A stretch of DNA of 64,000 bases from Bacteroidales bacterium. GTDB lineage: Bacteria; Bacteroidota; Bacteroidia; Bacteroidales; GWA2-32-17. The stretch's first letter is position 1. The number at the start of each line of letters is the position of its first letter. Location: assembly GCA_026416095.1 (NCBI GenBank), contig JAOAFV010000017.1, positions 1-64,000 on the forward strand. Reading direction: 5' to 3'. Made by a program: the position numbers and the translations under genes. The notes beneath the pieces were generated by a model. The model saw only the letters and a program-made list of their open reading frames with translations. It made no database searches and was not told where the DNA came from. Positions 18,138 through 62,588 of this stretch are shown in pieces.

Positions 18138-19900
18138 AATTCAATTATTTTGTAATACCATTTACTATTGGCATTATATTTTGCATATTTACAATTATCA
18201 TAAAGTTTATCCAATGGTTCCAAAAATTAGATTCATTCGAGAAAAGGAAACTCTTTAAAACATTCAAATCACCAAAGAAACTTATATTTATTGCAACAGA
18301 AATATTTTTAGAATCACTACTACACCGCAGAATATTTAAAACTAACTTACTTTTAGGATACATGCATTCGAGTTTTGCTTTTGGTTGGTTTTTACTTATT
18401 ATTTTTGGTTTTTTAGAAACCACGTTACATTATAAAACCTTAATACACCCGATTTATGAACCAATTTTTTTTAAATTTTTTCATCACCAAGTATATAACA
18501 AAACAATAAACTTTTTAATGGACTTATTTCTATTATATATTCTAACAGGCATAGCACTGGCAATATTTAAAAGGCTTTATAAAAAAATTTTTGGTATAAA
18601 AACAAACACAAAATTAAATTTACTTAATAAAATTGCCCTTATAGCGTTATGGTTAATATTTCCGTTAAGACTAATTGCCGAAAGTACAACAGCGGCTATA
18701 TATAATAACGGTGACTTTTTAACTCAAAATTTTGCATCTATTATTAATGTTATAGTTAATCCTAAAAAAATAGAAATTTATACATGGTGGTCATATTCGT
18801 CTGTTCTATTTTTATTTTTTACACTTCTACCATTTACCCGCTACATGCACATACCAACTGAAATGTTTTTTATTACATTAAAAAAAGCAGGTATCGAATT
18901 CAACACAAAAAATAAAGGTATAAAAAATATAGAAATATATTCTTGTTCAAGTTGTGGCATATGTATTAGTAATTGCCAAATGTATAACTATTTAAATAAA
19001 TCTTCTATGGTTCCTTCATATTACTTATATAACCTTCGCAAAAACGAAACCACTAAAAAAAGTACTTATGAGTGCCTGATGTGTGGACGATGTGAAGAAT
19101 TTTGTCCTGTTAAAATTGATATTTTGGAAATTAAAAGTACACTTAGGCAAAAATATATTAATAATCTACTTCAGAATTATATTTTTATTAAATATCCAAT
19201 CATTAATTCCAATAATACAAAAATTGGATATTTTGCAGGTTGCATGACACACTTAACTCCATCTATAATAGAATCTCTAAATAAAATTTTCAAAAAATTA
19301 AATACAGAATGTGTTTTTATAGATAAAGACAGTACTATATGTTGTGGCAGACCTTTAAAACTAGCAGGTAAATTAAACGATGCCAAAAACATAATTTCCA
19401 AAAACACCGAATATTTTAATAGTTTAAACTTGAATTTAATAATAACTTCATGTCCTATTTGTTATAAAACTTTTAAAGAAGATTATAATGCTTTAAATAC
19501 AAAAGTAATTCATCATTCACAATGGCTTGCAGATTTAATAAATGCTGGGAAACTAAATTTAAAAAAAACAAACGAAACCGTAGTATATCACGACCCTTGC
19601 GAATTAGGACGTGGCACAGGTATTTACGAAGAACCTAGAAGAGTAATAACTGCTATATATGATTTAGCCGAAAGTAAATTTTCTAAAAACAACTCGTTAT
19701 GTTGTGGTGGAAGTTTAGGTAATTTTTACACTAATGAAATAGAAAAAATAAAAATTGCTCAAGATACCTTAACTATAATAAATACTTTAAAAGTTAATAA
19801 AGTAATTACTGCTTGTCCATTATGTAAAAAAACATTCCAAAAATCTTCCGAAAACTTTATTATAAAAGATATTAGCGAAATAATTGCAGAAAATTTGTAA
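18134..19900 (+). CDS. Membrane/HdrD-like fusion: N-terminal transmembrane (NarI/HdrE-like) region, two 4Fe-4S motifs, two CCG domains
   Basis: Hydrophobic N-terminal segments; CSSCGICISNCQ, CLMCGRCEEFCP; GYFAGCMTH...TICCGRPLKLAG...TSCPICYKTF; HDPCELGRG...SLCCGGSLGNF...TACPLCKKTF. Confidence 0.8.
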   Translation: MKFNYFVIPFTIGIIFCIFTIIIKFIQWFQKLDSFEKRKLFKTFKSPKKLIFIATEIFLESLLHRRIFKTNLLLGYMHSSFAFGWFLLIIFGFLETTLHYKTLIHPIYEPIFFKFFHHQVYNKTINFLMDLFLLYILTGIALAIFKRLYKKIFGIKTNTKLNLLNKIALIALWLIFPLRLIAESTTAAIYNNGDFLTQNFASIINVIVNPKKIEIYTWWSYSSVLFLFFTLLPFTRYMHIPTEMFFITLKKAGIEFNTKNKGIKNIEIYSCSSCGICISNCQMYNYLNKSSMVPSYYLYNLRKNETTKKSTYECLMCGRCEEFCPVKIDILEIKSTLRQKYINNLLQNYIFIKYPIINSNNTKIGYFAGCMTHLTPSIIESLNKIFKKLNTECVFIDKDSTICCGRPLKLAGKLNDAKNIISKNTEYFNSLNLNLIITSCPICYKTFKEDYNALNTKVIHHSQWLADLINAGKLNLKKTNETVVYHDPCELGRGTGIYEEPRRVITAIYDLAESKFSKNNSLCCGGSLGNFYTNEIEKIKIAQDTLTIINTLKVNKVITACPLCKKTFQKSSENFIIKDISEIIAENL

Positions 19901-22243: not shown

Positions 22244-23446
22244 TTATCTTTTTAAATATATCATACCCTTCATATCAACAGTTTTGTTATTAGCATTAGT
22301 AGCTCTAATAACATAATAATACACCCCATCGGGTGCTACTGTATTTGTGTTCAAAATTTTTCCATCCCATTTTATTGTTTCATGTTTAACCGAGTAAACT
22401 AATATACCATTCCTATCGAATATATTGCATTCTTCAATTTTTAATCCTTTAAGTTCAGGTTCAAAATAATCATTTATTCCATCATTGTTAGGAGTAAAAA
22501 TATTCTGAATCTTATCATAACTTACAGGAATACTAACAACATATTTTTTCAACACCGAATCTTTACAAACATTCTGATAATTACTTACAAGCTTAATATT
22601 ATATGTTCCATTTTGAACAAATTGATAAACAACATTACTTTCATCAGAAATTTTTTGATTATTTATATACCAACTAAAACTTAAATTACTATAATTAGAC
22701 CAAGGTTTACGATCTATTGTAGAAGTATTTTCTAAATATACGGTTAAGAAGTTATTATCTGGTAATTCAAAAATATTAAAATTTGTACTTAATTTTAAAC
22801 TATCCTTTACAAAAGCCGATAAAGTATCTATAATTCTTGTCCCTTTTTTAACATATATTTTATAAAAGCCAGAAGCAATATTCTCTTTTTTGCCTTGAAT
22901 GATTTCGTTGTTAAGTATAAATTCTATATCATTGCAATTACTACAGGTAATGTATATACCTCCATTTTTACTATTACATACATTAGGCTTAGTATAAACC
23001 CGATAATCATAAAAATTATTAGTGTTATTCATCTGATGTTCTGTATTTTCTGGGTAATCATTTTTTTCTGTAATAGTGGATTCACGGTAAATGCTATGGT
23101 TTAAGTTAACCTTGGTGTTCTTATGAATGTCAATCTTACTATAAGGTTCATTGTTCTTTACTAGATCACTTTGAAAATTAAAAAAAATATTGTTCAATCT
23201 AAATTCCTTATAATGTGCTATTAAAGGCATAACGGATACTTTTGATTCATTAATCTTAATCAAAATCGCTGCAATGCTTGCAACAACAAAACTTCCTAAA
23301 ATTAAATACTTCCATAAATATTTTGTTTTAATAGTGTTAATAATCTTCACAAAAGTATCATCAGGCGGTGTTATTTCGAAATTATTAAATTTTTCTCTAA
23401 TAAAATTATCGAACTCTTCTATTTTATAATCTTTATAATTTTTCAT
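22244..23446 (-). CDS. Anti-sigma-factor-like single-pass membrane protein with PKD-like region and T9SS type-B (CHU_C) C-terminal domain
   Basis: Short acidic N-terminus then TM (YLWKYLILGSFVVASIAAILI); C-terminal NIFTPNNDGINDYFEPELKGLKIEECNIFDRNGILVYS...WDGKILNTNTVAPDGVYYYVIRATNANNKTVDMKGMIYLKR; ORF overlaps the upstream sigma gene. Confidence 0.75.
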   Translation of the reverse strand: MKNYKDYKIEEFDNFIREKFNNFEITPPDDTFVKIINTIKTKYLWKYLILGSFVVASIAAILIKINESKVSVMPLIAHYKEFRLNNIFFNFQSDLVKNNEPYSKIDIHKNTKVNLNHSIYRESTITEKNDYPENTEHQMNNTNNFYDYRVYTKPNVCNSKNGGIYITCSNCNDIEFILNNEIIQGKKENIASGFYKIYVKKGTRIIDTLSAFVKDSLKLSTNFNIFELPDNNFLTVYLENTSTIDRKPWSNYSNLSFSWYINNQKISDESNVVYQFVQNGTYNIKLVSNYQNVCKDSVLKKYVVSIPVSYDKIQNIFTPNNDGINDYFEPELKGLKIEECNIFDRNGILVYSVKHETIKWDGKILNTNTVAPDGVYYYVIRATNANNKTVDMKGMIYLKR

Positions 23447-23969
23447 AGCTCTTTATTTTACATTTATCTAAATTCTTATTTAAGTTTTTCATTAATAAAC
23501 GTCTAGCCTTAAAAAGTTGAGTTTTAGAAGTTGACTCACTTATATTAAGAATTTGTGCTATTTCTTTATGACTGTACCCTTCAATAACAAACATATTAAA
23601 TACCATTCTATAGCCATCTGGTAAAGAATTGATTTCTCTAAGTATATCTTCGAGCTGCATGTCTTCAAACGATATAAGCTCATCTTTTTCTTCATCAGGA
23701 ATATTAACATCGGGTTCCTCAAGAAAGCTACGATTAATAAACTTATGGTAGAAATTAATAGCAGTAGTAACAAATATCCTACGAAGCCACCCTTCAAAAG
23801 AACCAATACCTTTGTAATCTTTAAGGCATAAAAAAGCTTTTACAAAACCATCATGTAATATATCTTTTGCATCGTTTGCATTACGAGCATATCTTAAACA
23901 AATTCCGTACATTTTCTTACTATATTCTTTATATACTTGTTCCCATTGCTTTTTTATTTCTTCATTCAT
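23433..23969 (-). CDS. ECF-type RNA polymerase sigma factor
   Basis: YGICLRYARNANDAKDILHDGFVKAF (region 2) and LPDGYRMVFNMFVIEGYSHKEIAQILNISESTSKTQLFKARRLL (region 4). Confidence 0.92.
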   Translation of the reverse strand: MNEEIKKQWEQVYKEYSKKMYGICLRYARNANDAKDILHDGFVKAFLCLKDYKGIGSFEGWLRRIFVTTAINFYHKFINRSFLEEPDVNIPDEEKDELISFEDMQLEDILREINSLPDGYRMVFNMFVIEGYSHKEIAQILNISESTSKTQLFKARRLLMKNLNKNLDKCKIKSYEKL

Positions 23970-24093
23970 ATCAGTACTTAAAAGACAAGATAAAACAAAA
24001 AAAGTTGTCTATAACTAATTTATAAATTTAATTTTTTTTTGACAAAAATAAAATTATAAATGATTAAATTTTAAAAAAAACTAATTTTTAATG

Positions 24094-54053: not shown

Positions 54054-57000
54054 TTACCTTATAATTGAAACTGTACCAGTGTAAGGTTTTTGATTATTGT
54101 GTAAATCTACAATAACAAAATACGATCCTATTGGTAGCTTTTTATTATTATAACAACCATCCCACTGATTATTAACATCACTATATTCTATTCCACTACC
54201 ATTAAACTTGAACAATAAATTACCCCATCGATCGTAAATTTCAATTGTAACTTCTTTAAACCTTTCAATTCCTTTAATAGCAAATTTATCGTTTTTATTA
54301 TCTCCATTTGGTGTAATAAAATTCGGAATAATAAAATCGATATCAAAATCTGCTTCAGCAATGGCTATACAACCTAAAGTGTCGGTAACTGTGACCGAAT
54401 AATGACCACTTGTAGTTATATATATGCTACTATCAACTTCTCCTGTCGACCAAATATAAGAATATGGCGAAAAGCCACCACTAACATTTACATTTGCTAT
54501 ATTGTTTTCATTATCAAAAGCTATTTGAGCAATAATTGATACAGAATTTAGAATCACAGTATCGCTATAAAGACATCCATTTTGATCTGTTATTGTAAAG
54601 TAATACATTCCTGCACTCAAGTTATTCACCTGAAAAGTTGAATCACCATTTGACCATATTATTTTATATGGAGAAGTACCACCGTTAGGCACAATAGAAA
54701 TAAAACCATCATTTAAACCTGCACAAATAAACGGAGTATAATCATCTATGTTTGCATGCAAGGCCGGAGGCTGAAGAACACTAACAGATGAGGTTGCTGT
54801 ACAATTGTTGGCATCGGTTATAGTTACTGTATATACTCCAGCAATAAGTTCTTGAATAGAATTTGTTGTTTCACCTGTGTTCCATAATATATTCAAAGGA
54901 GGTGTACCACCTGAAGCTAACACAAAGGCACTTCCATTATTGCCACCGTAACATGAAACAGGATTAGAAGAAGTAGTTACCACTAGTGGATTAGGTTCAG
55001 TAATTACAAAATTTCCAATTAATGTGCAGTTATTTTTATCTGTAACTGTTACACTATAATTACCTGCTACAAGATTTGAATTAATGTTGGAAGTGTTTCC
55101 ATTGTTCCATAAATATTGATATGGTTCAACTCCTCCAGTAACAATTATGTTAATAGAACCTGTATTATGGCCATGACACTTTACATCAATAGCAGTATAA
55201 TTAATATTTAAAGGTTGAGGTTGATTTATGGTTACTGAGGTCGCAGTAGCACAATTATTGGCGTCTGCAACATTTAAAACATAAACGCCTGCAGGTACAT
55301 TATTCAGATAATTTGTTGTATTACCATTGTTCCATAAATAAGAATATGGAGGTGTGCCACCATGAACATTAACAATTGCTGAACCATTAGATTGGCCAGC
55401 ACATGTCACATCGGTCACAGTAACCTCAAAAGATAAAGGAGATGGTTGAGTAACAGTTATAGTTGCACTTGCAGTACAATTATGACTATCTCTTACAGTT
55501 ACTGTGTAATTGCCAGCTGCAAGCATCTGCTGATTAGCACTCGATGACCCATGCTGCCATGTATATAAATAACCAGGAGTACCACCTGTAACATTTAAAG
55601 TAATTGACCCATTTGTCAAGCCATAGCATGTTACATTATTAACTGTATAATTTATAACAATTGGATTGGGTTGAGATACTGTTAATGAAACGATACTAGA
55701 ACAATTATTTTGATCGGTTACAGTTATGTAATAAGTTCCAGCAGAAAGAGTATCTATATATGATACAACGTTATTGAAACCTTGCCCATACACACCATTC
55801 GACCACTGGTAAGTTAATAATCCCGATCCTGAAGCAGTAAATGCTGCACTACCATTATGCTGTCCATAACAAGTAACATGCGATAAAACATTTGCCGTAA
55901 CTGTTGGTGCTCCTATATTACTTACATTTACCGACGATGTAATAGTACATCCTAAATTATCTGTTACTGTAACGTAATATGTACCTGCTCCTATGTTTTG
56001 TATTGTTTGTGAAGTTTGTCCGTTAGACCATAAGTAAGAATAAGGAGGTACTCCCCCACTTACAGTTACCGATGCACTTCCATTATTATTGCCACAAGAA
56101 GCATTATTAACCATAGTATTTATAATAAGTTTAGTAGGAAAAATTATTGATTGCGAATATGGTGGAGAAGCACATCCATTTTCCGTAACAGTTAAACTTA
56201 TATTGTAAGTATTACCAGCTACACCTGTTAAAATATGAGGGCCTTGTCCGGTACCTGGTGTTGCTGTTGCTCCACCAAAGTTCCATGTATACACGGCATT
56301 ACTACTTCCAGTACCAGTATACATCACAAATCCACTATCACCACTGCATGTTGGGTTATTAATTGTAAAGGTTGCTGTGGGTATATTATTAACATTAACA
56401 ATAATAGGAGTAGTGTGGCCAACACATTGAGGATTAAAATAAGCAACAAAGTAAGTTGTAGTATCATACAAAATTGGAGTTATATACGAAGAGCCTGTAT
56501 GTATGGGGTTAGTAGGTTGTGGAGTAGTATACCAATAAAAATTACCATATCCAGAAGGTTGTGATATTGTAACTGTTGCCGAATTGCCATCGCATATTGT
56601 TACATTTGGATCAACAGGTTTTGGCTCGCCCAAGATATATCCAAAAGGAGAATAATTAGACGGTAACTGTACAGAAATTGTACCATTATTTCCGCCACTT
56701 GCAGGTATTGTTGTTGTTAAAACGTACGACCAATTTGGAGTTGGGGTATAAGTTCCCCTTATCACTGAGATAATGCACTCATACATTGTAGAAATAAAAT
56801 CATACGACAAATTATAAGAAAACTGAACAGTGCCTTGCGGATTTCCAGCATCTGGTTGAATAAAAGTCCAATAATTTGAATAAAATGTGTTATTATTATT
56901 TATGCTATCCTGGTATACTAGTAAATTTGATGTACCAGTAGTATTTGTAAAATTGAAAGTTAACGGACGATATTTATTAACAATGCTATTTGATGTACCT

Positions 57001-58313
57001 ACAGGAAACACATAGGTTCCTGTTGTTATTGCTCTTTTAAACTTACCTGCAATAAAACTATTATTAGAGTAATCAGCTAAACTTGAAGAAGAGTTATTCG
57101 ATAAGTATAATTCATAAAAATTATTTCCATTGCGTGTATATACAATACCATTTGTTAAGTATAAATCATACGTTACTGTAACATTAGATCCGAGAAGCAC
57201 ACCTGCCCCTGTATTGTTTATTGTAAGTTTATATAAAGAATTATTTCCAGGTGAAAAAAGTTGCTTTTCGGTCAAACTTGTTCCATTTAATATAAGACGA
57301 CCTTGACTGGCAACAAAAGTCCCTGTAGAGTTTACTACAAAATTTTTACCAACATATAATTGCCTTACTCCATTTACATCCCAAGTGCCATTAATTACAG
57401 AAAAATTATTTAATACATAAATATTTCCAAGCGAATTATTTGGTCCTTCAATAGGAGAAACCTTTCCTTGCGATTTGTCTACTGTTAGGTTCCAAAAGGG
57501 ATTTTGTTGAGGGTTGGCTACATATATTGTCTGATTGTTAGGCTGACATGAGCTGTAATTATCATATTTAATTACTAAAGAGCTATATCCACAAACAAAG
57601 GTTCCTTTACTAACCCAATTACCATATAAATAAATAGTCTTATAACCGCCGTAAACTGTAGCTCCACTATTTATAACCACATGATTAAGATAGAAGCTAT
57701 AAGTACCTTTTAAAGAATCGATACCATCGAAAACTACTGTAGCATTAGGAAAGTTCATAGAATTCCTAGCAAAAACGCCATCTGCAATAAAATTTCCTTT
57801 AATAAAAGTTGTGTCTTGATGTAAACTTACACCTTTCCCGAGGTTATTATTTGTATTTGCAGAGCGTAAATGATAAAAAGTTGGCTTATTTCCCAACATT
57901 CTTTGAGCATCGTTTCCATTAAATGTTACAGTGCCCGTACCATGATTAAATGTTCCATATAAAATAAAATCGCCAGTTAATTGAATTGTACCTGAATTAA
58001 GATTTAGAGTCCCGTATATTTCCAAATTACCTCCTAATACAGTATTGCCAATAAGCGATAAAGTATGATCGCCAATATTTAACACACCACCACTGTTTAT
58101 TTTTAATTTATAAACGGTTGCATTTACATTTAAAGTAATATTAGCTCCACTAACTATAACAACCGAATCATTTGATGTTGGTATTACCCCTCCAACCCAT
58201 GACGAAGCAGAATTCCAATTGCCTGTTACAGCATTACTTACTATTGTTGCAGAAAAAACAATTTCATAACCTAATAACAATATAAATATTAATGAGATGC
58301 ATTTTATTTTCAT
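54054..58313 (-). CDS. Giant secreted SprB-repeat protein with CHU_C / type-B T9SS C-terminal domain
   Basis: Signal peptide; beta-helix-like N-terminal half; PKD-like middle; tandem SprB repeats; C-terminus FITPNGDNKNDKFAIKGIERFKEVTIEIYDRWGNLLFKF...WDGCYNNKKLPIGSYFVIVDLHNNQKPYTGTVSIIR. Confidence 0.92.
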   Translation of the reverse strand: MKIKCISLIFILLLGYEIVFSATIVSNAVTGNWNSASSWVGGVIPTSNDSVVIVSGANITLNVNATVYKLKINSGGVLNIGDHTLSLIGNTVLGGNLEIYGTLNLNSGTIQLTGDFILYGTFNHGTGTVTFNGNDAQRMLGNKPTFYHLRSANTNNNLGKGVSLHQDTTFIKGNFIADGVFARNSMNFPNATVVFDGIDSLKGTYSFYLNHVVINSGATVYGGYKTIYLYGNWVSKGTFVCGYSSLVIKYDNYSSCQPNNQTIYVANPQQNPFWNLTVDKSQGKVSPIEGPNNSLGNIYVLNNFSVINGTWDVNGVRQLYVGKNFVVNSTGTFVASQGRLILNGTSLTEKQLFSPGNNSLYKLTINNTGAGVLLGSNVTVTYDLYLTNGIVYTRNGNNFYELYLSNNSSSSLADYSNNSFIAGKFKRAITTGTYVFPVGTSNSIVNKYRPLTFNFTNTTGTSNLLVYQDSINNNNTFYSNYWTFIQPDAGNPQGTVQFSYNLSYDFISTMYECIISVIRGTYTPTPNWSYVLTTTIPASGGNNGTISVQLPSNYSPFGYILGEPKPVDPNVTICDGNSATVTISQPSGYGNFYWYTTPQPTNPIHTGSSYITPILYDTTTYFVAYFNPQCVGHTTPIIVNVNNIPTATFTINNPTCSGDSGFVMYTGTGSSNAVYTWNFGGATATPGTGQGPHILTGVAGNTYNISLTVTENGCASPPYSQSIIFPTKLIINTMVNNASCGNNNGSASVTVSGGVPPYSYLWSNGQTSQTIQNIGAGTYYVTVTDNLGCTITSSVNVSNIGAPTVTANVLSHVTCYGQHNGSAAFTASGSGLLTYQWSNGVYGQGFNNVVSYIDTLSAGTYYITVTDQNNCSSIVSLTVSQPNPIVINYTVNNVTCYGLTNGSITLNVTGGTPGYLYTWQHGSSSANQQMLAAGNYTVTVRDSHNCTASATITVTQPSPLSFEVTVTDVTCAGQSNGSAIVNVHGGTPPYSYLWNNGNTTNYLNNVPAGVYVLNVADANNCATATSVTINQPQPLNINYTAIDVKCHGHNTGSINIIVTGGVEPYQYLWNNGNTSNINSNLVAGNYSVTVTDKNNCTLIGNFVITEPNPLVVTTSSNPVSCYGGNNGSAFVLASGGTPPLNILWNTGETTNSIQELIAGVYTVTITDANNCTATSSVSVLQPPALHANIDDYTPFICAGLNDGFISIVPNGGTSPYKIIWSNGDSTFQVNNLSAGMYYFTITDQNGCLYSDTVILNSVSIIAQIAFDNENNIANVNVSGGFSPYSYIWSTGEVDSSIYITTSGHYSVTVTDTLGCIAIAEADFDIDFIIPNFITPNGDNKNDKFAIKGIERFKEVTIEIYDRWGNLLFKFNGSGIEYSDVNNQWDGCYNNKKLPIGSYFVIVDLHNNQKPYTGTVSIIR
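54480..56120 (-). repeat. Tandem SprB-type repeats (about 7 plus one degenerate) within the adhesin-like gene
   Basis: Repeated VxCxGxxNGSxxVxxxGGxPPYxYxWxNGxTxxxxxxLxAGxYxVTVTDxNxC at about 70-80 aa spacing. Confidence 0.85.
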
Positions 58314-58359
58314 ATTAAAAAATTTTTATTAAAAACTTAATTATAAATGCGGTTAGTAT

Positions 58360-59274
58360 TTACAATAAAGTAGATCCTTTCTGTTTACCCTCAAATACAT
58401 TAAATCCGACGAGTACTTCGTGACTACCTTTTGAATAATTATTGAGACTAGAAAATGTATAATCAAAAGCGTAGCCAACGTAAAATTTTTGATATTTAAC
58501 ACCAAGCATTATTATAAGGTCTTTACTTGTCCTATAAGATAAACCTCCCCAAAATTGATTATTATAAATAACTCTTGTATTTATGTCGATTTGCCAAGGA
58601 GTTCTGAAAGTTCCTTTAATTAACAATGAAGGTTCAACTTCTAAGGTTTCGGAAACAGGTATTTTATAACCACCAAATAAGTAATAATGCCTTATAAGTT
58701 GATTTTTCCCTAAGCTACTATCACTTACATTTAACTTCATTTGAATTATTTGAGTTGCAGATAAGCCAACGTTTAATTTTTCATTATAAAGATATGCACC
58801 AAAATCGGCATCTGGAACAAATTTTGTTGTTATCCCTTTATCTACTGTTGCATCATCGGCATCAATTAATACTGCATTACTCTTATCGAACTTAAACTGA
58901 AATGCTTTAAAAGCTAATCCAATACCCAATTTTGAATTTATTCCTTCTAATGGTAAATGATAAGCACAATTAGCTTGTAAGCCTGTTTCACTTATTGGAC
59001 CAAATTTATCGTTAAAAATAAAACCACCTACCCCTATGTTTTGATTAGTAAGTAAATAATGTGCGCTTAATACTTGTGTTGATGGTGCATCTTTTATACC
59101 TACCCACTGCTGGCGTATAGTTAATCGTATTGGGAAATAATCAACACTGCCTGTAATACCAGGATTTAGTAAAAAATTATTGAAAAGGTAAATTGAATAT
59201 AATGGAACTTGCTGACTTTTTAAAAATAAAAAACTAAAATTCGCTATAATAAATGTTATAAATAATCTTTTCAT
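58360..59274 (-). CDS. PorP/SprF-family type IX secretion membrane protein
   Basis: QQVPLYSIYLFNNFLLNPGITGSVDYFPIRLTIRQQWVGIKDAPSTQVLSAHYLL...GVGGFIFNDKFGPISETG. Confidence 0.92.
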   Translation of the reverse strand: MKRLFITFIIANFSFLFLKSQQVPLYSIYLFNNFLLNPGITGSVDYFPIRLTIRQQWVGIKDAPSTQVLSAHYLLTNQNIGVGGFIFNDKFGPISETGLQANCAYHLPLEGINSKLGIGLAFKAFQFKFDKSNAVLIDADDATVDKGITTKFVPDADFGAYLYNEKLNVGLSATQIIQMKLNVSDSSLGKNQLIRHYYLFGGYKIPVSETLEVEPSLLIKGTFRTPWQIDINTRVIYNNQFWGGLSYRTSKDLIIMLGVKYQKFYVGYAFDYTFSSLNNYSKGSHEVLVGFNVFEGKQKGSTLL

Positions 59275-59399
59275 ACTTAAATAATTTTATTGCAAAGTTA
59301 TATTAAAAATTATCAAATAAAAAAATTTTAAAGATTATTTTTTTTATACTTTTTCATTTAAACAATTATTTATTATATTATTTTGAACAATAAGTAATT

Positions 59400-60614
59400 C
59401 TAAAAAGCAGTAATTAGTAAATCTATTGGTCTATATGGAATATCATATAATTTAGAAATGTAATGATTAGTTAAAATACCATTGTATATGTATATACCAT
59501 TTCGAAATCCTATAATATTTTTTGCATAATGGGTTAAACTGCCATATTTACCAATTTCTATTAAAATAGGAGTAAGTATATTACTTATTGCATACGAAGC
59601 TGTGCGTGCAACTCTTGAGGGTATATTTGGAACGCAGTAATGAATAACTCCATGCTTTTCATAAACTGGATTAGAATGGCTTGTCATTTTAGATGTTTCG
59701 ATACATCCACCTTGATCAATGCTAATGTCAATGATAACACTACCTTTTTTCATCATTTTAACCATTTCTTCAGTTACGTAAAATTTTGGAGTATCTTCAA
59801 TGAGTCGTATTGCTCCAATTACTACATCAGCCTTTTTAATAGCATTAGCTAATATAACAGGATGAATTATTGAAGTGTATACTCTTTGGCCAAGATTAGT
59901 TTGTAACCGTTTGAGTTTATAAGTTGATGTATCAAAAACTTTGACAATAGCACCTAAACCAAGTGCTGTACGTGCAGCATACTCGCCAGCTGTGCCGGCT
60001 CCTAAAATTACTACTTCGGTTGGATTTACTCCTGTTATGCCCCCCAACATGGTACCTTTACCGTTATGTACATTGCTTAAGTATTCAGCAGCTATAAGAA
60101 TAGATGTACTACCTGCTATTTCGCTCATAGAGCGTACAATAGGATAACAATCGTTTTCGTCTTTTAAATATTCGTAAGCCACACATGTAACCTTTTTGCT
60201 CATTAATTGCTGAAAATAATTTTTAGATTTTGTTCGCACATGTAAAATTGACATTATGATCTGATTTTCTCGAATTAAATCAATTTCTTTCTCGGTAGGA
60301 GCTGATATTTTCACAATTATGTTAGAATTGTTGAATATTGTTTCTTTATCTTTAACTATTTGTGCACCTACATCGCTATATTCTATATCCAAAAAATTCG
60401 CTTTTTTGCCCGCATTAGATTGAATTAATACTTCGTGTCCGTTGTTTACAAGCAAGTCTACCATATAAGGTGTAAGAGCAACTCTGTTTTCTTCTTTATC
60501 TTCGTCGATAGGAATACCTATAATAAACTTTTTACTATCCTTTTTTACAGCCAATATTTCTTCGTGAGGCATTAATTCCGTTACTCTTAATTTATCGCTA
60601 ATAGTTTTACCCAT
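59400..60614 (-). CDS. ald: Alanine dehydrogenase
   Basis: IGIPIDEDKEENRVALTPYMVDLLVNNGHEVLIQSNAGKKANFLD...VILGAGTAGEYAARTALGLGAIVKVFD. Confidence 0.9.
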   Translation of the reverse strand: MGKTISDKLRVTELMPHEEILAVKKDSKKFIIGIPIDEDKEENRVALTPYMVDLLVNNGHEVLIQSNAGKKANFLDIEYSDVGAQIVKDKETIFNNSNIIVKISAPTEKEIDLIRENQIIMSILHVRTKSKNYFQQLMSKKVTCVAYEYLKDENDCYPIVRSMSEIAGSTSILIAAEYLSNVHNGKGTMLGGITGVNPTEVVILGAGTAGEYAARTALGLGAIVKVFDTSTYKLKRLQTNLGQRVYTSIIHPVILANAIKKADVVIGAIRLIEDTPKFYVTEEMVKMMKKGSVIIDISIDQGGCIETSKMTSHSNPVYEKHGVIHYCVPNIPSRVARTASYAISNILTPILIEIGKYGSLTHYAKNIIGFRNGIYIYNGILTNHYISKLYDIPYRPIDLLITAF

Positions 60615-60615
60615 A

Positions 60616-61029
60616 TTAGAAAGTAATTATTCGTTTACAATTATCTTCTAAATTAATATGTATTTTCAAATAATTATAATTTTTCAAATAATTTTCTGCA
60701 ATTTCAGGCCATTCAATGAAACAATATTCATTTTTATCGAGATATTCGGGAAAACCAATTTCTATAAGTTCATTTTCGTTTTTTATTCTATACAAGTCGA
60801 TATGATAAAAAATATTGCCATTAAATTCGTACTCATTAATAATTGTAAAAGAAGGACTACACGTGTTTTTAAATCCCGACAATTTTTCAATAATTTTTTT
60901 TATTAATGTAGTTTTGCCAGAACCTAAGTCGCCATAAAATGCCCATATTTTTACGTCTGAATAATTTTTTATTAAGATATTAACAATATTATCAAGTTCA
61001 CTAATAGAATTTACTATAAATTTCTTCAT
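60616..61029 (-). CDS. tsaE: tRNA threonylcarbamoyladenosine biosynthesis protein TsaE
   Basis: WAFYGDLGSGKTTLIKKI; SPSFTIINEYEFNGNIFYHIDLYRI; CFIEWPE. Confidence 0.95.
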   Translation of the reverse strand: MKKFIVNSISELDNIVNILIKNYSDVKIWAFYGDLGSGKTTLIKKIIEKLSGFKNTCSPSFTIINEYEFNGNIFYHIDLYRIKNENELIEIGFPEYLDKNEYCFIEWPEIAENYLKNYNYLKIHINLEDNCKRIITF

Positions 61030-61031
61030 AA

Positions 61032-62588
61032 TTACTTTAAAGTTAAATAAGAAAATGGTACTAAAATTTCTTCTAAACTTATACCACCATGTTGATAAGT
61101 GTTTCTGTAAAATTTAACATACTGATTGTAGTTATTTATATAGGCAAAAAAATCATTGTTTGTAGCAAAAATATATTCACCTGCAACTGTTGTTTGTGGT
61201 AAAAAAGCCTTTGACGGATTACTAATTATAAAAACTTCCTTCTCAGGATATTTTATATTTTTGCCATATTTATATCTAAGATTGGTAGTAATATTTTTTT
61301 CGCCTAAAATTTTAATTGGACTTTCAATTCTAACAGATCCATGATCGGTAGTAAGGAAAATACTAAAATTGTTTTCGCTACATATTTTTATTATTTGGTA
61401 CAATGAGCTGTACTCGAACCATGAATATATGAGATTACGATACGAAAAATTATTTGAGCTCATCTCTTTTACAGGTTTCGATTGTGGCTGAGTATGTGTT
61501 AAAATATCAATAAAGTTATATATAATAACTCCATAATTAAAATTATTTAATAATCCATTAATCTCGTTAAGTAATCGTCGGCTATCGTCGGTAGTTACTA
61601 TTTTTTTAAAGAAAAATTTCTCTCTTATACCATTTCTTATACATAATCTATTAAATAATTCTTGTTCGTACTGATTTTTCAAATCATCTTCAGTTTCATC
61701 GATCCATAAGTTTGGGTATAATTTTTGTATTTCTGAAGGCATAAGACCCGAAAATATTGAATTACGAGCATATGCAGTTGCTGTCGGAAGTATTGAAAAA
61801 TATAAGTTTGTCTCGACATTATAATACTTTGAAATTAGTGGTTGAATAAACAATAAATGATCGTATCGTAAATTATCGATAAGAAGTAAAATTGCTTTAT
61901 TATTATGTTTTAAGAAAGGAAAAAATTTTCGCTGTAAAATGTTTTGAGACATTACAATTGAATTATTTGTATCGTTGATTAACAATGTTAAATAATTATT
62001 TTTCACAAATTTAGAAAAAGCATTATTGGCTTCTTTATATTGTGCTTCAATTAACTCTAACGAATTTGTATCGTTTATTTTTTGTAATTCAATATCGTAA
62101 AATACTATGTTTCTGTAAATACTAAGCCAGTCTTCAATGGTTTGAGCGTAGTTTATAGAATTTAAAATTTTTTTAAACTCTCGATAAAAGTCGGAAAGAG
62201 TTTTTTCTTGTTGAAGTTTTTCTGTATCGGTTATTTTTTTTAGCGATGATAATAATTGTTTAGGATTTACTGGTTTAATTAAATAGTCGACAATATGAGA
62301 AGCAATAGCATTTTCAATTATATTTTCTTCTTCATTCTTAGTAAGCATTATGATAGGTATATTTTTGTAAGTTTTGTGAATTTCGCTCGTTAGAGTAAGA
62401 CCATCGATTCCCGGCATGTGTTCATCTAAAATAATAACATCGAAAATTTGCTCATTAAGAATCTTTAAGGCATCTATGCCATTATAAACAGGTGTAACAG
62501 AATATCCCTTCTCTTCTAAAAAAATGAGATACGACTTTAACATGTCTATTTCATCATCAACCCATAGTATTTTTATTTTCCTTGTCAT
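61032..62588 (-). CDS. porX: PorX-like bifunctional response regulator / PglZ (alkaline-phosphatase-superfamily) protein
   Basis: N-terminal receiver ILWVDDEIDMLKSYLIFLEEKGYSVTPVYNGIDALKIL...VIILDEHMPGIDGL...IIMLTKN; C-terminal LLIDNLRYDHLLFIQPLISKYYNVETNLYFSILPTATAYARNSIFSGLMPSEI...LTTDHGSVR. Confidence 0.92.
   Translation of the reverse strand: MTRKIKILWVDDEIDMLKSYLIFLEEKGYSVTPVYNGIDALKILNEQIFDVIILDEHMPGIDGLTLTSEIHKTYKNIPIIMLTKNEEENIIENAIASHIVDYLIKPVNPKQLLSSLKKITDTEKLQQEKTLSDFYREFKKILNSINYAQTIEDWLSIYRNIVFYDIELQKINDTNSLELIEAQYKEANNAFSKFVKNNYLTLLINDTNNSIVMSQNILQRKFFPFLKHNNKAILLLIDNLRYDHLLFIQPLISKYYNVETNLYFSILPTATAYARNSIFSGLMPSEIQKLYPNLWIDETEDDLKNQYEQELFNRLCIRNGIREKFFFKKIVTTDDSRRLLNEINGLLNNFNYGVIIYNFIDILTHTQPQSKPVKEMSSNNFSYRNLIYSWFEYSSLYQIIKICSENNFSIFLTTDHGSVRIESPIKILGEKNITTNLRYKYGKNIKYPEKEVFIISNPSKAFLPQTTVAGEYIFATNNDFFAYINNYNQYVKFYRNTYQHGGISLEEILVPFSYLTLK

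Follow-up and report, generated by a model that had tools for sequence, protein, structure and literature searches.

The window, a stretch of 64,000 nt of Bacteroidales DNA (contig JAOAFV010000017.1), contains an ECF sigma factor gene and, directly downstream of it, a gene for a membrane protein which we call the partner. Both ORFs are on the minus strand and overlap by 14 nt; an ECF sigma factor with an overlapping anti-sigma-like membrane partner had been described at these positions in the original prediction, made from the sequence only. The features of the locus, with the basis of each assignment in brackets, are:

23983-24009, minus strand: predicted ECF-type promoter of the sigma gene (motif in 10 clade members)
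23433-23969, minus strand: ECF sigma gene, 178 aa (Pfam, TIGR02937 and tree)
22244-23446, minus strand: partner gene, 400 aa (ORF)
23309-23446, minus strand: partner residues 1-46, predicted cytosolic anti-sigma module, FDNFIREKFNNFEITPPDDTF..I (ortholog conservation, module homology)
23249-23308, minus strand: partner residues 47-66, single transmembrane helix (hydropathy, structural model)
22984-23248, minus strand: partner residues 67-154, disordered periplasmic linker (pLDDT, low identity)
22511-22983, minus strand: partner residues 155-312, Ig-like strands including a PKD-like domain (PKD_3, model)
22247-22510, minus strand: partner residues 313-400, type B sorting domain (CHU_C / TIGR04131) of the type IX secretion system, T9SS (profiles, conservation, pLDDT)

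The sigma factor matches Sigma70_r2 (6e-11) and Sigma70_r4_2 (2e-17) of Pfam, regions 2 and 4 both being present, and it scores above the cut-off of TIGR02937, the model for the ECF superfamily. At least four related sigma factors, this one included, are encoded in the genome (G000). The four sigma/partner pairs found there comprise two with a CTD-type partner (the window's and L019), one with a barrel-like partner (L017, so called by eye and without a Pfam barrel match) and one with a short partner (L018). In L019 (G000:C14; sigma gene near 73321, partner at 73799-75037) the partner consists of module, transmembrane helix, PKD and CHU_C, and the sigma factor branches elsewhere in the sigma tree.

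A single hydrophobic stretch is present in the partner (residues 47-65, KD mean 2.28). In the structural model, the overall confidence of which is low, two N-terminal helices are followed by a membrane helix (residues 52-65), disorder at approximately residues 66-154 (pLDDT < 50 in the linker), Ig-like beta strands across residues 155-312 and a confidently modelled C-terminal domain (pLDDT 80-95). PKD_3 of Pfam was detected with 5e-5, slightly below its cut-off. The start of the protein does not look like an N-terminal Sec signal peptide, since a conserved, charged segment of 46 aa lies ahead of the hydrophobic stretch. Foldseek with the partner model returned generic Ig-repeat matches only, and a PDB sequence search with the CTD-type partner only PKD or FlgD-like pieces. 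No curated anti-sigma model (ZAS, RskA, FecR) in Pfam or NCBIfam matches the window's partner. Relatives of the partner score weakly against NF052375, e.g. 15-16 bits at a cut-off of 100; the NF052375 and RsgI_N matches in some relatives were set aside as being far below the cut-off or isolated.

The C-terminus gave no barrel match and is instead covered by CHU_C (PF13585; residues 312-398, 9e-18, 64.6 bits at a cut-off of 27) and TIGR04131 (residues 313-400, 51.6 bits at a cut-off of 35), the latter reaching the last residue. The CHU_C/type B domain claimed in the original prediction is therefore found above both cut-offs. Among the 31 type B domains above the cut-off in its own genome that of the partner ranks 17th, and thus it is no more degenerate than the domains of ordinary cargo: the type B sorting domain of the partner is intact and genuine. 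SprA and 16 PorP-family barrels above the cut-off are encoded in the same genome, which consequently has the T9SS core.

Using the partner alone, and not the sigma factor, as query, we searched 60 related genomes for orthologs. Full-length orthologs were found in eight of the nine genomes of the same genus or family (the ninth is 74% complete); in each case the gene immediately follows a sigma gene and overlaps it, and the transmembrane helix is at residues 47-70. Comparing the orthologs pairwise, we obtained the highest mean identity for the sorting domain (51%), followed by the PKD domain (42%) and the N-terminal module (41%), and the lowest for the linker (17%). The terminal basic residue that is usual in type B domains is absent from some orthologs, so that their export competence may differ.

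The scan of named genomes with the sigma alignment yielded 80 loci. Where an adjacent downstream gene is present, it nearly always encodes a partner of the same kind, with a module of about 45 aa (D..fr.kl.nfE..PP..vW..I) and one transmembrane helix. Scanning 71 partners (70 loci plus the window) revealed the barrel domain OMP_b-brl_2 in 17, CHU_C/TIGR04131 in 12 (the window included) and a type A sorting domain in two; pairs arranged like that of the window occur repeatedly in Bacteroidota. When the N-modules of the CTD-type partners are compared with those of the barrel-type partners, they align with a hhalign probability of 98.7% and a score of 67, as compared to 16 or less in 200 column shuffles; judged by this profile comparison, they are homologous. 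In the sigma tree the window's sigma factor belongs to an all-CTD clade of ten rows (99/87*), while over the tree as a whole the sigma factors of barrel-type partners intermix with the window's sigma factor. The CTD-type ending requires at least seven changes over this tree, four of them forced by well-supported branches, and the outer end of the partner was therefore exchanged repeatedly. Type B and type A sorting domains are recurring alternative C-termini of one partner family.

In the model of a barrel-type member, module, transmembrane helix and long disorder precede a beta-barrel with OmpA/OmpW-like structural matches; no solved relative of these partners was found by PDB sequence search. 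This is the architecture of the dual membrane-spanning anti-sigma factors (Dma): Dma1 and Dma2 of B. theta are inner-membrane anti-sigma factors with an outer-membrane C-terminal domain (PMC13088901). The short N-terminus, which together with the single transmembrane helix had been read as anti-sigma-like, is indeed a module that sigma-linked proteins of Dma architecture also carry. With this published precedent, calling the placement of a sorting domain on an inner-membrane protein paradoxical, as was done in the original prediction, is too strong.

Several further observations concern this family. The type A sorting domain was found at the C-terminus of the N-module partners L058:4503-6134 and L096:4484-6163. 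At L084, L099, L107 and L122 a related ECF sigma gene is directly followed by a gene whose Sec-exported product has a type A-like C-terminus, and a module-bearing partner is lacking. In Chitinophagaceae and allies (L055-L057, L060, L064, L067, L074, L077, L078, L081, L091, L095 and L097) the partners have about 130-330 aa and no outer-membrane domain; in several of them the PP..W module is doubled ahead of the transmembrane helix, and many share a conserved short C-terminus. These short partners are another branch of the same partner family. L017 (G000:C14; sigma gene near 18139, partner of 437 aa) is a Dma-like pair of the window's genome, and beside it lies a third ECF sigma gene, which is divergently transcribed. 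When 396 genomes of the phylum were searched with the alignment of the full partner, ordinary PKD+CHU_C cargo dominated the hits. Nor is co-occurrence with SprA informative: SprA is encoded in 46 of the 48 genomes that have a partner of any type.

Upstream of the sigma gene, a -35 element GACAAC (24009-24004) is separated by 15 nt from a -10 element TTGTCT (23988-23983), which ends 13 nt before the sigma start. Every one of the ten clade members (nine orthologs and L054) has the motif GRCAAC-N15/16-TTGTCT ahead of its sigma gene. ECF promoters carry AAC in the -35 and GTC in the -10 element, and the motif resembles them more than it resembles the housekeeping type of Bacteroidota. With this motif before the sigma gene and a partner gene overlapping it, the operon may be autoregulated. 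Within 300 nt upstream of the three remaining related sigma genes in the window's genome there is no such site, and the motif is absent from the promoter of L019. In L266 (G004:C99) and L297 (G008:C59), another ECF sigma gene with a module-like partner is preceded by the variant TGCAACCC-N15-TTGTCT; the start of the -35 element may set which sigma factor reads a site. In the whole window's genome, CAACN{15,16}TTGTC occurs 15 times, as compared to 61 times for the reversed control pattern, which possibly reflects avoidance of stray promoters or just composition.

All other exact matches to CAACN{15,16}TTGTCT were retrieved from five genomes (G000-G004). Thirteen of the 15 sites with the GRCAAC start lie 17-101 nt ahead of a gene whose product has a signal peptide; signal peptides were called in all sets of sites by one and the same simple rule based on hydropathy. 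Of the control sites without the GR prefix, only 4 of 44 lie ahead of genes for exported proteins, and all four are TGCAAC (Fisher p=5e-8; since the genomes are related and some sites orthologous, this value overstates independence). The same words at the wrong spacing (N11-12) in G004 were found before such genes in none of 12 cases, and none of them has the GR prefix. Five of the 13 GRCAAC targets have a type A T9SS domain above the cut-off, one scores just below it and one is thioredoxin-like without a type A domain; six are cut by contig ends, themselves or in their second gene, and the respective C-termini are therefore unread. Sites found by eye in G006-G008, left out of the Fisher test, precede seven further genes, the products of which score above the cut-off for the type A domain in five cases and for the type B domain in two. 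No T9SS machinery gene was found behind any motif site.

In the sister genomes the regulon has much better support than in that of the window, where there is only one further GRCAAC site (C11), before a cargo-like operon encoding an exported protein of 126 aa and a choice-of-anchor L protein whose gene is cut by the contig end. Two type A proteases of this genome are preceded by a weaker TGCAAC site, but the presence of TGCAACCC-N15-TTGTCT upstream of another ECF sigma gene means that TG sites are not assigned here. The spacers of the self promoter and of the targets agree: N15 for both in the window's genome, N16 for both in G001-G003, with respect to the GRCAAC targets. Given the predicted autoregulation and the agreement of the sites in prefix and spacer, it is probably the window's sigma factor, and not another ECF sigma factor, that reads the GRCAAC motif.

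With moderate confidence we propose that the partner is a Dma-like anti-sigma factor with a T9SS sorting domain as its outer-membrane end, which governs T9SS cargo genes and plausibly senses the export machinery. The proposal builds on computed results: the pairing of the genes, the architecture of the partner with its intact sorting domain, the homology of the module, the promoter motif in common and the association with cargo. From these we infer sigma binding, docking, sensing, the direction of the signal, and release by proteolysis or pulling. The module of 46 aa would hold the sigma factor at the inner membrane, as module homology and the Dma precedent suggest, one helix would cross this membrane, and the disordered tether with the Ig/PKD domains would span the periplasm. 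At the outer membrane the type B domain would meet a part of the T9SS. Type B CTDs (those of PG1035 and SprB) bind PorP-like outer-membrane barrels (PorP/SprF) (PMC9143113), so the natural docking partner would be such a barrel, most plausibly, or the SprA translocon. No porP gene lies beside the sigma/partner pair, and the partner may thus sample a shared pool. One could speak of a split Dma, in which the fused barrel would be replaced by a domain docking onto a barrel borrowed from the T9SS.

The sigma factor, in turn, would use GRCAAC-N15/16-TTGTCT promoters to transcribe T9SS cargo genes as well as the operon that encodes it. Since the predicted targets are cargo genes, the simplest function would be the matching of cargo synthesis to export: whether the sigma factor is released or held would depend, in a cargo-supply loop, on the T9SS state that the sorting domain reads. 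The sign of this loop may be FlgM-like, with release when the tag is engaged by a free machine, or release may occur when excess cargo displaces the tag. A full FlgM-like checkpoint of secretion competence is conceivable, although we regard it as rather doubtful: a functional and unoccupied T9SS would capture or pull the C-terminus, destabilise the partner and free the sigma factor for cargo genes, and with the T9SS saturated or absent cargo synthesis would be shut off.

Could the C-terminal domain have lost its connection to export? The partner would then be a true anti-sigma factor that had recruited CHU_C as a plain Ig-like domain for sensing or anchoring, its interaction with the T9SS being lost. 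CHU_C has an Ig-like fold related to FlgD_ig, and the generic Ig hits of Foldseek and the missing terminal basic residue of some orthologs would fit such a history. However, the match covers the full length of the domain and exceeds the cut-off, its rank among the cargo of the same genome is intermediate, no other part of the partner is conserved as well as the sorting domain, it is type B and type A sorting domains rather than random Ig domains that recur at this position, and the predicted targets are T9SS cargo; we therefore consider this explanation unlikely. A normal type B signal would also be expected if the protein were ordinary T9SS type B cargo, with the hydrophobic stretch as a cleaved signal peptide and an incidental overlap with the sigma gene, which is the case that the original prediction had named as its refutation. 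It is highly improbable, since the charged, conserved 46-aa module stands before the transmembrane helix in every ortholog and in the barrel-type partners, the overlapping pair is kept over a large divergence, and exported proteins in these genomes typically start with short signal peptides.

A different objection concerns the regulon. The pair may be real and the GRCAAC cargo promoters nevertheless be read by a different ECF sigma factor, so that cargo control and T9SS sensing would be unconnected to the pair. The genome offers at least four related sigma factors, and the similar TGCAACCC-N15-TTGTCT stands before another ECF operon. Against this, the GR prefix and the spacing match the self promoter in every clade member, the change from N15 in the window's genome to N16 in G001-G003 affects self and target sites alike, and no such site lies within 300 nt upstream of the genome's other three related sigma genes. 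Reading by another sigma factor is thus quite improbable, and control of cargo genes by the window's pair is the interpretation we retain.

The earlier idea that the partner monitors the T9SS has gained strength, in that the promoter motif of its sigma factor marks T9SS cargo genes; the sensing itself we infer. The accompanying link to PorX and SigP is not supported. The porX gene does lie about 37 kb away, as a receiver + PglZ gene at 61032-62588, but none of the motif sites found precedes T9SS machinery genes, and we leave this link aside because its basis is proximity only. The region 54054-62588 of the window carries, on one strand, a gene for SprB-repeat type B cargo (54054-58313), a PorP-family gene (58360-59274) and porX.

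The GRCAAC-N15/16-TTGTCT motif before the sigma genes of the clade and before genes for exported proteins is new. T9SS regulation as described so far (PorXY-SigP) concerns the machinery (PMC7712824), and the literature searched gave no account of how T9SS bacteria match their supply of large exported proteins to export capacity. The cell may match cargo production to its export machinery, and the sorting tag on an anti-sigma factor together with the motif on cargo genes makes the question of cargo supply directly testable. For Bacteroidota in general, our data suggest a swappable family of envelope-spanning anti-sigma factors with a beta-barrel, a type B tag or a type A tag as outer ends, which may read different outer-membrane systems. 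An anti-sigma factor with a T9SS sorting domain was not described in the literature searched, the coverage of which excluded most subscription papers, so that a prior description is possible.

Among known systems, FlgM of flagella, the anti-sigma factor of FliA, is a small soluble protein that is exported in its entirety. A possible common logic is an anti-sigma factor recognised by an export apparatus, with a sigma factor that controls late cargo; there is no homology, and export or capture of the window's partner is hypothetical. Cargo such as PG1035 and SprB has a C-terminal domain of the same family. However, these are Sec-exported surface proteins, whereas the partner starts with a cytosolic module and a transmembrane helix and has no neighbouring porP.

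In P. gingivalis the surface protein PorA, which has a type A domain, signals via the two-component system PorXY to SigP, and SigP governs T9SS machinery genes (PMC7712824). There, too, a sorting-domain protein acts upstream of an ECF sigma factor in T9SS control; in the window, by contrast, the putative anti-sigma factor itself carries the sorting domain, and the predicted targets are cargo genes. For Dma of B. theta, control of an ECF21 sigma factor by the anti-sigma factor was demonstrated experimentally (PMC13088901). The partner resembles Dma in its N-terminal module, single transmembrane helix, disordered periplasmic tether, outer-membrane-directed C-terminus and adjoining ECF sigma gene, a likeness drawn from the published architecture and from the module of the local barrel-type partners, not from the B. 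theta Dma sequences. It differs from Dma in that Ig/PKD and type B domains stand in place of the terminal beta-barrel, and in that the predicted targets of its sigma factor are T9SS cargo genes.
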